From: an uncultured Verrucomicrobiota bacterium
Lineage (GTDB): Bacteria > Verrucomicrobiota > Kiritimatiellia > RFP12 > UBA3636
Direction of reading: 5' to 3'
Length of the DNA stretch: 35,521 bases
Assembly: GCA_949295265.1 (NCBI GenBank)
Contig: CASFKR010000027.1
Span: 1-35,521, forward strand
Shown here: positions 8,030 to 29,480 of the stretch, piece after piece
Layout: each line of letters opens with the position of its first letter
Numbering within the stretch: the stretch's first letter is position 1
Translations under genes and position numbers: made by a program
The notes under the pieces: model-generated
Seen by the model: only the letters and a program-made list of their open reading frames with translations
Databases searched by the model: none
Told to the model about the DNA's origin: nothing

Positions 8030-8145
8030 TCCGGGCGGCGTACCTCAGGCGGTGGACGGCAATCTGCCGCCTGAGATACCGCCGACCGGCCATGGGCTCT
8101 GGCTCATGAGTCGCCCCGCCCACTCAGAGGGCGGGGCGGGTGCGC
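8030..8145 (+). repeat. Module A copy 1 (hairpin chain) downstream of the DUF4175-like gene
   Basis: Begins 12 bp after the stop codon. It contains a stem with perfect 9-bp arms CTCAGGCGG (8044-8052) and CCGCCTGAG (8067-8075), then GACCGGCC, the palindrome CTCATGAG, and a GC hairpin CCCCGCCC...GGGCGGGG (8116-8138). The same order of elements recurs at four other loci in the window. It could act as a transcript end in the convergent space between this gene and araD, but no T-tract is present. Confidence 0.85.
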
Positions 8146-8164: not shown

Positions 8165-8281
8165 ACAGGACGTACAGGACGTACAGGACGGACAGGATGA
8201 ACAGGATGAACAGGATGAACAGGACGGACAGGACGTACAGGACGTACAGGACAAACAGGACAAACAGGACAAACAGGACAG
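8165..8281 (+). repeat. Module C array 1: thirteen 9-bp ACAGGACNN units
   Basis: Thirteen head-to-tail 9-mers with no spacers. The unit variants occur in blocks: GT, GT, GG, then three ACAGGATGA, then GG, GT, GT, then three ending AA, then AG. All six frames are open by composition, giving spurious peptides such as repeated SCxSC or QDx. It is preceded by CGCAG and followed by TTTGACGCCAC, flanks shared with arrays 2 and 3. Confidence 0.95.
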
Positions 8282-8288
8282 TTTGACG

Positions 8289-8324
8289 CCACTGGGGCCA
8301 CTGGGGCTACCTGGGGCTGCTGGG
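8289..8324 (+). repeat. Module D short run (CACTGGGGC units)
   Basis: About four degenerate copies of the 9-bp ACTGGGGCN unit lie between module C array 1 and the inverted module A copy. They are related to the longer arrays at 24135 and 29390. Confidence 0.7.
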
Positions 8325-8440
8325 CGTGTGGCGCGGCTTCGCCGCCCTCGGAGTGGGCGGCCGACTCATGAGCGGCTGGCTTAGGCCGGTCGGTCTAACG
8401 CCGCCCGGCAGAAGAGGCGGCTTCGCCGCCCCGCTGGCCG
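8325..8440 (-). repeat. Module A copy 2, inverted, overlapping the 3' end of araD
   Basis: On the minus strand it reads GGGGCGGCGAAGCCGCCTC, TTCTGCCGG, then GACCGGCCTAAGCC, CTCATGAG and CCGCCCACTCCGAGGGCGGC. It has the same element order as the copy at 18232 but the opposite orientation. It extends into araD and forms that gene's last ~12 codons and its stop. Confidence 0.85.
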
Positions 8441-12569: not shown

Positions 12570-12623
12570 ACAGGACGGACAGGACGGACACGACGAACAC
12601 GACGAACAGGACGAACAGGACGG
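12570..12623 (+). repeat. Module C array 2: six 9-bp units
   Basis: Six units (ACAGGACGG twice, ACACGACGA twice, ACAGGACGA, ACAGGACGG). The left flank CGCAG and right flank GGCTTGACGCCACACC match the other arrays, so the array sits in a conserved frame whose internal copy number differs (13, 6 and 5). Confidence 0.92.
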
Positions 12624-12667: not shown

Positions 12668-12818
12668 GCTGCGCTGGCTTGTCCAGGCGGCTATGCCGCC
12701 GAGAAAAAGTCCTTATTTGACACCTTGGTCGGAACGTTAGTGGAGACTTCAGAAGGGGGCTTCGCCCCTCCGTGTGGCTCAAATCATCATTCTGCGCTGG
12801 CTGAGCCTCCGTGTGGCT
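12668..12818 (+). repeat. Module B copy 1
   Basis: Runs from GCTGCGCTGGCTT through the hairpin GGCGGCTATGCCGCC, GAAAAAGTCCTTATTTGACA, CCTTGGTCGGAACG, TAGTGGAGAC and a second hairpin (AGGGGGCTTCGCCCCT) to TCCGTGTGGCTC, then AATCATCATTCTGCGCTGG and another CTCCGTGTGGCT. The core is nearly identical to copies at 16571-16683 (inverted) and 24261-24392. It overlaps the stop codon of rsmI. Confidence 0.9.
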
Positions 12819-15737: not shown

Positions 15738-16379
15738 TCAGGCCTCAAAAAGTTCCGGCAGCCGCTCTTCCAGAACCCGGAACAAATCCTGCGTCACGCG
15801 TTCCACCGGTTGCGAGGCGTCGAGCACGGCGAAGCGCTCCGGCTCGCGGGCCGCCATTTCGAGGTAACCTTGGCGGAGGCGCTCATGGAAGGCGATGGGT
15901 GCGCGCTCGATACGGTCTTTGTTGCCGGACCGGGCGACGGCGCGTTGGAGGCCGTCCAGCACCGGAATATCCAGCAGAAAGGTGACGGCGGGGGAAACGG
16001 GACCGGTTGCGAAGGCATTGAGCTGGCGCAGGGTTTCGACGTCGAAGCCGCGACCGTATCCCTGATAGGCGAGGGTGGAGTCGGTGAAGCGGTCGAGCAC
16101 GATCCAGTCCCCGCGTTCGAGTGCGGGCCCGAGCACGTTGGTGCAGAGCTGGGCGCGGGAGGCGCAGAAGAGCAGGGCTTCCGCAGCATCGCAGAGCGGC
16201 TCTTTTGCCAGGTCGTTTTGCAGGATGTCGCGGATGATTTCACCGGTCGGGGTGCCGCCGGGTTCGCGGGATGTCAGGACGCGAATGTTTTTGTTCCGGA
16301 GAAATTCCGTGAGCAGGCGGGCTTGTGTCGATTTTCCTCCGCCTTCGGGCCCCTCGAATGTGATGAGTTTTCCGGTCAT
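15738..16379 (-). CDS. tmk: Thymidylate kinase
   Basis: A 213-residue dTMP kinase that makes dTDP for DNA synthesis. The P-loop FEGPEGGGKST is at residues 8-18. The substrate-binding TSREPGGTPTGE and the DRFTDSTLAYQGYGR signature are intact, and the length is typical. It is the first gene of the minus-strand run tmk-AEC-alr-rsmI. Immediately upstream is a 546 bp gap with repeats. Confidence 0.97.
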   Translation of the reverse strand: MTGKLITFEGPEGGGKSTQARLLTEFLRNKNIRVLTSREPGGTPTGEIIRDILQNDLAKEPLCDAAEALLFCASRAQLCTNVLGPALERGDWIVLDRFTDSTLAYQGYGRGFDVETLRQLNAFATGPVSPAVTFLLDIPVLDGLQRAVARSGNKDRIERAPIAFHERLRQGYLEMAAREPERFAVLDASQPVERVTQDLFRVLEERLPELFEA

Positions 16380-16477: not shown

Positions 16478-16518
16478 CCGGGGGATAAACCAGCGAAAAG
16501 GGCTTATCCCGGATTTTT
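16478..16518. other. Hairpin GGGATAA/TTATCCC followed by ATTTTT
   Basis: Arms GGGATAA (16482-16488) and TTATCCC (16504-16510) with flanking CC/GG (a two-base bulge) and a 15-base loop, followed on the plus strand by ATTTTT. It looks like a weak intrinsic terminator on the plus strand, but no plus-strand gene ends here. It lies between tmk and module B copy 2. Confidence 0.4.
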
Positions 16519-16570
16519 GAGCCACACGGAGGAAGGCCGTGAAACTCGGCCTCGCGAAGAGTTAAGAAAA

Positions 16571-16683
16571 TTGAGCCACACGGAGTAGCCCCCCTCTGAA
16601 GTCTCCACTACCGTTCCGACCAAGGTGTCAAATAAGGACTTTTTCTCGGCGGCAGAGCCGCCTGAACGAAGTCAGCGCAGCCA
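16571..16683 (-). repeat. Module B copy 2, inverted
   Basis: Reverse complement of the core seen at 12668 and 24261. The 64-bp block 16601-16664 (GTCTCCACTA through GGCGGCAGAGCCGCC) is the best conserved part. It is bordered by GAGCCACACGGA, which also occurs alone at 16520-16531. The second hairpin is degraded here. Confidence 0.9.
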
Positions 16684-16727
16684 TTGGAGCGACGGCAAAG
16701 TTATTTTACTGAAGGTTACTTGACAAA

Positions 16728-16756
16728 GTAAATGCGACTAGGGTAGTCGCATTTAC
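16728..16756. promoter_or_regulatory. Perfect 13-bp palindrome upstream of the CorC-like gene
   Basis: Arms GTAAATGCGACTA (16728-16740) and TAGTCGCATTTAC (16744-16756) with a GGG centre. It is preceded by a smaller inverted repeat TTACTTGACAAAGTAA. The AT content is unlike the neighbouring GC-rich repeats. It may be an operator, or the residue of a mobile element or of a lost regulated gene. There is no following T-tract, so a terminator is unlikely. Confidence 0.7.
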
Positions 16757-16794
16757 GATGAGAAGTTACAACATAAACCGGTGAAAAGGGCCGG

Positions 16795-18245: not shown

Positions 18246-18388
18246 CCGCCTCTTCTGCCGGTCGGGGCGGGCGGCAAACTGCCGCCTGTGGTGCCGGTCG
18301 GCGTTCTCAGGCGGTGGATCACCGCCGACCGGCCTCGGCCAGCGGCTCATGAGTCGGCCCGCCCACTCCGAGGGCGGGGCGGGTGTGC
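18232..18388 (+). repeat. Module A copy 3, starting inside the CorC-like gene
   Basis: Starts at GGGGCGGCGTAGCCGCCTC, continues TTCTGCCGGTCGG, then the stem CAGGCGGTG...CACCGCC, GACCGGCCTCGGCC, CTCATGAG, and CCCGCCCACTCCGAGGGCGG. Its first 28 bp match the inverted copy at the end of araD at nearly every position. The gap 18246-18614 holds only modules A, C and short flanks. Confidence 0.88.
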
Positions 18389-18449
18389 CGCACACCCGTG
18401 CCCCCAGTTGCCCCAGAAGCGCAGCGTGGCACAGGTGTGGCGGCAAGCC

Positions 18450-18494
18450 GTCCTGTTCGTCCTGTCCGTCTTGTTCGTCCTGTACGTCCTGTCT
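18450..18494 (-). repeat. Module C array 3, inverted: five 9-bp units
   Basis: Five GTCCTGTNC-type units (reverse of ACAGGACNN). The flanks, read on the minus strand, are CGCAGACAGGAC on one side and GGCTTGCCGCCACACC on the other, as in arrays 1 and 2 but in the opposite orientation. Confidence 0.92.
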
Positions 18495-18614
18495 GCGCCG
18501 GCTCCGCTCCCACCGCTGGCTTTGCGTCGGCTTGCGGGTTGCAAACTTTGGCGGAGTGTAGGAAACTGGACGCGTTGCCGGTCAAACCGGATCGGCGTTT
18601 TCTGAAGGGCAAAC

Positions 18615-23832: not shown

Positions 23833-24010
23833 GGGCGGGGCGGCGGTGCCGCCTTTCTGCCGGTCGGCGTTAACCGACCGGCCTTGGCCAGCGGCTGATG
23901 AGTCGACCCGCCCACTCCGAGGGCGGGGCGGGGCGGCGGTGCCGCCTTTCTGCCGGTCGGCATCTCAGGCGGTGGATCACCGCCCGACCGGCCTTGGCCA
24001 GCGGCGGGAC
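23833..24010 (+). repeat. Module A copies 4 and 5 in tandem after the DUF58 gene
   Basis: Two units begin 2 bp after the DUF58 stop. Unit 1 has the short centre CCGGTCGGCGTTAACCGACC (8-bp stem). Unit 2 has the long centre, in which GGCGGTG-GAT-CACCGCC is inserted within the outer CCGGTCGG/CGACCGG stem. Each carries GGCCTTGGCC; unit 1 ends with CCCGCCCACTCCGAGGGCGG. The gap 23831-24452 contains only modules A, C, D and B. Confidence 0.9.
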
Positions 24011-24059
24011 GGGTGCGCCGAATCGGAAACATCGAGGCAACAGGAGGCGTTTATAAGCT

Positions 24060-24095
24060 CTCCTGTACGTCCTGTTCGTCCTGTTCGTCCTGTAC
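24060..24095 (-). repeat. Module C array 4, inverted: four 9-bp units
   Basis: CTCCTGTAC, GTCCTGTTC twice, GTCCTGTAC. Unlike arrays 1-3, the GGCTTGACGCCAC flank is missing here, so this may be a truncated copy. Confidence 0.85.
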
Positions 24096-24134
24096 CGCTG
24101 GCTTCGCCGCAACTGGGGCTACTGGGAGTGGGCA

Positions 24135-24251
24135 GATGGGGCCACTGGGGCCACTGGGGCTACTGGGGCCACTGGGGTCACTGAGGCTGCTGGGGCTACT
24201 GGGGCCACTGGGGGCACTGGGGCCACTGGGGTCACTGAGGTTGCTGGGAGT
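24135..24251 (+). repeat. Module D array: thirteen 9-bp ACTGGGGCN units with a 54-bp higher-order repeat
   Basis: After one diverged unit, 24144-24197 and 24198-24251 are two six-unit blocks with matching order (GGCC, GGCT or GGGC, GGCC, GGTC, GAGG, GCTGGG). G-runs recur every 9 bp with 5-base loops, which gives G-quadruplex potential on the plus strand. Translation gives collagen-like GPLGPL or GPSGPS strings, which I regard as spurious. Confidence 0.93.
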
Positions 24252-24260
24252 GCTGTTCAC

Positions 24261-24392
24261 TGCGCTGGCTTGTCCAGGCGGCTGTGCCGCCGTGAAAAAG
24301 TACTTATTTAACACCTTGGTCGGAACGTAGTGGAGACAAAGTCCGTGTGGCTCAAATAATCATTCTGCGCTGGCTGAGCCTCCGTGTGGCTC
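24261..24392 (+). repeat. Module B copy 3
   Basis: Same order as copy 1: TGCGCTGGCTTGTCCAGG, hairpin GGCGGCTGTGCCGCC, GAAAAAGTACTTATTTAACA, CCTTGGTCGGAACG, TAGTGGAGAC, TCCGTGTGGCTC, AATAATCATTCTGCGCTGG, CTCCGTGTGGCTC. The second hairpin of copy 1 is deleted (about 18 bp). Confidence 0.9.
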
Positions 24393-29055: not shown

Positions 29056-29365
29056 TGCGGGCGGCAAACTGCCGCCTGTGGTGCCGGTCGGCATCTCAGG
29101 CGGTGGATCACCGCCCGACAGGCCTTAGCCAGCGGCTCATGAGTCGGCCCGCCCACTCCGAGGGCGGGGCGGGGCGGCGGTGCCGCCTTTCTGCCGGTCG
29201 GCATCTCAGGCGGTGGATCACCGCCCGACCGGCCTTGGCCAGCGGCTCGACCCGCCCACTCCGAGGGCGGGGCGGCGGTGCCACCTTTCTGCCGGTCGGC
29301 GTTAACCGACCGGCCTTGGCCAGCGGCTGATGAGTCGGCCCGCCCACTCCGAGGGCGGGGCGGGC
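29056..29365 (+). repeat. Module A: three tandem units
   Basis: Units at about 29056-29175, 29176-29278 and 29279-29365. The first two have the long centre with the GGCGGTG/CACCGCC inner hairpin. The third has the short GCGTTAACC centre. Each ends with CCCGCCCACTCCGAGGGCGG. The middle unit lacks CTCATGAG, and the third has CTGATGAG instead. This is the longest array of the family here and the best place to define its unit. Confidence 0.92.
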
Positions 29366-29389
29366 GGGGGCGGCGAAGCGCTGGCGTCG

Positions 29390-29480
29390 CCGCCACTGGG
29401 CTACTGGGGCCACTGGGGCTACTGGGGGAACGGGTGTGCCTTTTGATGGGGCCACTGGGCAACTGGGGCTATTGGGAGTG
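29390..29480 (+). repeat. Module D array 2
   Basis: Two short runs of ACTGGGGCN units (29393-29430 and 29447-29480) split by GGAACGGGTGTGCCTTTTG. Several GGGG runs have 5-base spacing. From 29486 to 29536 small hairpins follow (CCGG..CCGG, GGCC..GGCC, CGGGG..CCCCG) up to the dehydrogenase stop. Confidence 0.8.

Follow-up and report, generated by a model that had tools for sequence, protein, structure and literature searches.

A conserved repeat core in a Kiritimatiellae genome is probably a passenger of promoter-directed miniature inverted-repeat elements

Introduction

What kind of sequence is a ~110-bp repeat that occurs three times in a single contig, and what has spread it? The repeat, here called Module B, lies in a stretch of DNA of 35,521 nucleotides (the window, contig C27) that belongs to a genome of 2.82 Mb in 199 contigs. 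The best named relatives of the release factor 2 encoded by this genome are Verrucomicrobia/Kiritimatiellae metagenome genomes, several of them from the ruminant gut, at 73-76% identity, and the host is thus probably a ruminant-gut member of the Kiritimatiellae. A sequence-only reading of the window had taken the ~110-bp module as the element itself, with a nearly invariant core, and had offered three guesses as to its nature—a MITE-like element, a family of small RNAs, or an integration site. The features of the window to which we refer are these:

12668..12818, plus strand: core-only (array-type) Module B copy without terminal repeats and with a CATTCTGCGCTGG tail, between two minus-strand genes
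15738-16379, minus strand: thymidylate kinase (Pfam PF02223), the next gene to the right of element 16501..16713, pointing away from it
16501..16713, minus strand: truncated miniature transposon with the copy at 16571, comprising part of the left segment, the Module B core and the right segment
16573..16664, minus strand: Module B core of the 16571 copy, from the GGCGGC hairpin through TCCGTGTGGCTC
16714..16757, minus strand: GTAAATGCGAC...GTCGCATTTAC hairpin repeat, which adjoins element 16501..16713 and replaces its left part
24259..24392, plus strand: core-only (array-type) copy with the variant core AAAGTACTTATTTAACACC and a CATTCTGCGCTGG tail, between convergent genes

The Module B Core

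The three copies were found in the window in the order and orientation first described, the middle one inverted. Positions 12669-12737 and 24260-24328 are 94% identical; CCTTGGTCGGAACG is the same in all three copies, while GAAAAAGTCCTTATTTGACA carries two changes in the third, which reads GAAAAAGTACTTATTTAACA. A tail shared by two copies had also been reported, and it is indeed the copies at 12668 and 24261 alone that run on into CATTCTGCGCTGG. These same two copies are core-only and have no terminal repeats.

Across its own genome the pattern ACACCTTGGTCGGAACG, at no more than two mismatches, gave 162 matches against 2 for a reversed-pattern control, so the Module B repeat stands far above chance. 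Most stretches had been chosen by a perfect 17-mer, among the best 100 of the 162 matches (all perfect), and conservation was therefore recomputed on 44 copies retrieved by means of a 131-bp query. The description of the core as nearly invariant was correct: of 120 windows compared across these 44 copies, the 17-mer diverges least, with 0.4% in the 17-bp centre and 4.5% elsewhere. A protein-binding or recombination role may be inferred for this centre.

Such a conserved centre might also mark a small-RNA gene family or a structured regulatory RNA, and the 17-bp core is both the most conserved part and common to transposon-type and array-type copies. We consider this reading very improbable, given that the sequence matches no Rfam family, does not fold better than dinucleotide-shuffled controls (z -0.31 and -1.38), and occurs in array-type copies in either orientation to genes.

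The 131-bp query had no match in 58 relatives, and the core pattern had none in a viral contig collection or in a genome contig collection from which the own and near genomes are perhaps absent. Diverged relatives of the core (TTTGCACCTTGACCGGAAC) occur at L101:848-866 and L084:2735-2753, and their sequence suggests an older core family.

The window holds other repeats as well. Tandem arrays of a 9-bp unit of the CCTGTTCGT type lie on both strands, at 8173-8278, 12570-12620, 18445-18503 and 24055-24104, and two units of it gave 67 matches over the examined stretches of the own genome; a second 9-bp array type, GGGGCCACT, occupies 24130-24255, 29389-29436 and 8277-8330. Five copies of a ~100-bp repeat that contains CGACCGGC and CCCGCCC hairpins lie in the window (8041-8140, 18284-18383, 23833-23932, 29074-29173 and 29265-29364), and others elsewhere in the genome.

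Anatomy of the Full Element

Alignment of 116-120 copies revised the extent of the element. In 70 of the 116 copies examined (~60%) the core lies inside something longer, flanked by the left segment, the right one or both; the other 46 are core-only and are set in short GC-rich arrays. The GGCGGC hairpin and TCCGTGTGGCTC, which had been read as borders, are both internal and are not the element ends. The full element measures ~336-344 bp and has the form CAGGCTTATCCCGG-(~310 bp)-CCGGGATAAGCCTG, with terminal inverted repeats of ~20 bp at both ends; its parts run in the order CAGGCTTATCCCGG, subterminal hairpin, left segment, Module B, right segment with a second TCCGTGTGGCTC, and AAAAATCCGGGATAAGCCTG. 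An A-rich tract is carried at the right end. Nineteen near-full-length copies (300-340 bp) gave a 339-bp consensus, with a mean pairwise identity of 91%.

The terminal repeat is more widespread than the core that it encloses—CAGGCTTATCCCGG at no more than one mismatch has 191 matches in its own genome, against 0 for the control. It also bounds other interiors, for example of 39, 48, 120 and ~303 bp, and Module B is therefore one passenger of a wider family. The minimal 39-bp and 48-bp elements, at L260:691-729 and L262:753-800, are hardly more than two terminal repeats placed back to back.

The window element at 16501..16713 retains an intact right terminal repeat (AAAAATCCGGGATAAGCC); its left terminus is gone, with another repeat in its place. 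This GTAAATGCGAC...GTCGCATTTAC hairpin repeat adjoins one further copy, at locus L034, which makes two such places in the stretches examined.

Target Duplications and Mobility

When the element end is placed at CAGG/CCTG, flush target duplications of 4-7 bp flank 24 of the 35 two-ended elements (4 bp in 1, 5 bp in 11, 6 bp in 10 and 7 bp in 2), and the other 11 have no exact duplication. In a permutation test on 32 elements, flank matching scored 5.66, compared with 1.70 (sd 0.28) for re-paired or shuffled flanks. The search for target-site duplications that had been proposed as a check thus found them, mostly of 5-6 bp, in about two thirds of the elements with two ends. An integration site has no support, as the copies are scattered over many unrelated loci and their duplications differ. 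The MITE-like guess gains support, though for the larger family, from the terminal inverted repeats, the target duplications and the high copy number, and it is further backed by a relative, G030, whose multi-copy insertion sequence shares these ends. Typical miniature elements measure ~340 bp; a candidate autonomous partner is seen in G030, by its ends, and none was found in the own genome.

Position Relative to Genes and Promoters

None of the 116 copies lies inside a predicted gene (our own gene caller); all are intergenic. Where a copy has both flanking segments and its neighbouring gene on the right is known, that gene points away in 20 of 21 cases, whereas the 46 core-only copies show no bias in gene orientation (20 vs 20).

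Promoters, all of them predicted, were located relative to the element end. The -35 TTG peaks at +14/+15 and the -10 TAnnnT at +37/+38, counted after CCTG; this corresponds to 13-14 bp from the end to the -35 box, or to 15-16 bp if the end is placed at GCC. The distance to the predicted start codon, measured after GCC, varies widely (median 127, quartiles 80-156, n=41). Of the core-selected right ends, 22 of 64 carry both boxes at the fixed spacing (shuffle mean 1.0, max 4); the count for left ends is 7 of 53 (shuffle mean 0.4, max 3). Either end can thus face a promoter, which is commoner for the right end. Ends chosen by the terminal repeat alone gave 11 of 26 (shuffle mean 0.5, max 4); these come from 20 stretches, taken from the 21 listed terminal-repeat places outside the earlier set, with C77:16684 left out. 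The shuffles preserve base composition and not dinucleotides, and more than half of the right ends fail the strict two-box criterion. The many copies at a fixed distance before predicted promoters suggest that the element recognises promoters on insertion.

Among elements that have a promoter at one end only, the ratio of right to left was 12/3 in full-length copies and 2/6 in partial ones (p 0.02, from small numbers and post hoc), a slight hint that intact copies might face gene starts and deleted copies the opposite way.

The window element departs from this pattern. Its promoter-like -10 lies at +80 (GCC-based count) and not at about +39, because ~41 bp of other sequence intervene between its right end and the promoter-like sequence upstream of the thymidylate kinase gene; with the standard spacing lost, this copy is a family member by its sequence and no clean example of the spacing rule.

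A different explanation is that insertion has no promoter preference, and that selection keeps copies just upstream of promoters, where they are harmless or serve as upstream activating DNA. All copies are intergenic, as this would predict, and the A-rich tract at the right end is of a kind often found in upstream promoter DNA. Harmlessness, however, predicts a broad zone, yet the peaks for both boxes are 1-2 bp wide, and the same spacing holds at left ends and at a differently built end in the relative. We regard selection without targeting as unlikely.

A Probable Same-Ended Insertion Sequence in a Relative

G030, from the same order and another family, has 19 matches to CAGGCTTATCCCGG (0 for the control), mostly at contig breaks and of two end types, in one of which a reading frame has its C-terminus. 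Four left and four right ends pair by flush duplications of 6-7 bp, where 0.05 would be expected at lengths of at least 5 bp over 42 pairings. Of the left ends, 5 of 6 have both promoter boxes at the fixed spacing (shuffle mean 0.1, max 3), and of the right ends 0 of 7 do. The relative's multi-copy element thus shares both the ends and the spacing of the family, and from the assembled ends and the C-terminal frame we infer that it behaves like an autonomous member of the same group.

The assembly lacks the interior of the insertion sequence, with its transposase; the six smallest G030 contigs do not contain it either. The element's 88-aa fragment, too short to classify, has no match in Pfam or NCBIfam. 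The viral collection contains no relative of it, and its two plasmid matches are at chance level; the G030-like end pattern likewise has no match in the viral contig collection. A match in another genome, G079, lay on an unrelated frame and was discarded as spurious.

Candidate Transposases in the Own Genome

Pfam family searches of the own genome found no transposase with these ends: PF00872, PF12762 and PF01610 (Transposase_mut, IS1595 and ISL3) gave 0 matches, and PF00665 (rve) gave one weak match, on contig C93. This match is a frameshifted ISNCY/ISBj12-like transposase gene, cut by the contig start (L166:3-1227), that immediately adjoins a right end of the family. This gene was rejected as the partner, as it sits outside the element end and nothing shows these ends on it.

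The single Y1 (IS200-like/REP-type) transposase gene detected, C12:28390 (L101:1399-1854), raises the idea that the elements are a REP-type repeat family spread by that enzyme. The gene matches a REP-associated model weakly and the elements do contain hairpins; its flanks, however, carry other hairpin repeats, with no core or terminal repeat nearby. The elements also have target duplications, and Y1 transposition is not known to produce any. The idea is strongly disfavoured and has next to no likelihood in our judgement. The repeats around the Y1 gene are CCTCGGGATTCGCT...AGCGCTCATCCCGAGG and CGACTCCTCCGGAGTCG hairpins, and the gene is possibly the own transposase of the CCTCGGGATTCGCT...AGCGCTCATCCCGAGG family; the stretches examined also contain 12 occurrences of a related CGGGATTCGCT..CTCATCCCG hairpin.

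Comparison with Known Systems

Bacterial MITEs and mosaic repeats, such as Correia, RUP and BIME, are small, non-coding, intergenic and high in copy number, with inverted ends and mosaic interiors. The family described here is like them in all of these properties; a non-exhaustive literature search turned up no bacterial MITE with promoter boxes at a constant distance. It is unlike the IS200/IS605-REP (RAYT) repeats in having target duplications and in having none of its ends near the Y1 gene.

The closest parallel in behaviour is with Mutator-like elements. In the portion of PMC3942029 consulted, TnGBS/ISLre2 (p-MULT 3) and ISKra4-group (p-MULT 4) elements insert 15-17 bp upstream of sigma-A -35 boxes, usually with one inverted repeat facing the promoter; they have a terminal C, their inverted repeats measure 18-39 bp, and their direct repeats are 8 or 9 bp long. 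The spacing rule (13-14 bp here, or 15-16 bp from GCC, to predicted promoters), the oriented end, the terminal C and the ~20 bp inverted repeats all resemble what that portion describes, and by analogy our family would work like these promoter-targeting elements. In contrast, the duplications here are of 4-7 bp (24 of 24 exact cases), or 6-7 bp in the four G030 pairs, and the genome has no Transposase_mut gene (PF00872). Because of the duplication length we do not file the family with TnGBS/ISLre2/ISKra4; it differs further in that its elements are non-autonomous, lie in Kiritimatiellae and have a greatly variable interior.

In duplication length and terminal C the family resembles IS1634 (5-6 bp, ends C-----YT) and ISH3 (4-5 bp, ends CRGT), as given in the part of PMC2266710 consulted, which describes no promoter targeting for either. 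The IS1634 end consensus fits in part, position 8 being A here, and CRGT fails at position 4. The IS1202 family, considered on account of the 5 bp duplications, was set aside, since its TGT ends and dif targeting, as outlined in the section of PMC10132070 consulted, do not fit.

Proposed Mechanism and Significance

Alongside the observed terminal repeats, duplications, copy number and fixed spacing from promoter-like sequence, we consider it likely that Module B is a passenger segment of a promoter-directed MITE family, probably moved in trans by an insertion sequence with the same ends. Module B would then be an internal segment of miniature inverted-repeat elements in a ruminant-gut Kiritimatiellae genome, and the DDE-type transposase of the same-ended insertion sequence would probably mobilise them. 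Insertion would duplicate mostly 5-6 bp and be directed to the upstream edge of promoters, leaving the element end ~13 bp before the -35 box, at about -49 from the likely start site, with full-length copies usually turning their right end to the promoter. The transposase may read RNA polymerase or sigma factor bound at the promoter, or else the shape that this binding gives to the DNA; the core-only copies in short GC-rich arrays may have arisen later by local recombination.

A bolder proposal, which we put forward tentatively and think somewhat doubtful, is that a non-Mutator transposase independently gained RNA-polymerase-guided insertion and thereby placed ~100 miniature elements at about -49 of promoters in Kiritimatiellae. 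If true, the upstream region of many genes would have been replaced, and the elements would form a natural genome-wide promoter map. The promoter-directed bacterial transposition known from the consulted portion of PMC3942029 is that of Mutator-like elements with 8-9 bp duplications; the same spacing rule with 5-6 bp duplications, in another phylum and in a miniature swarm, would mean that promoter targeting is broader or convergent. The family offers many natural insertion sites for asking what a transposase reads, and its elements would mark promoter positions in an uncultured lineage where many genes may have had their upstream region moved by such insertions.
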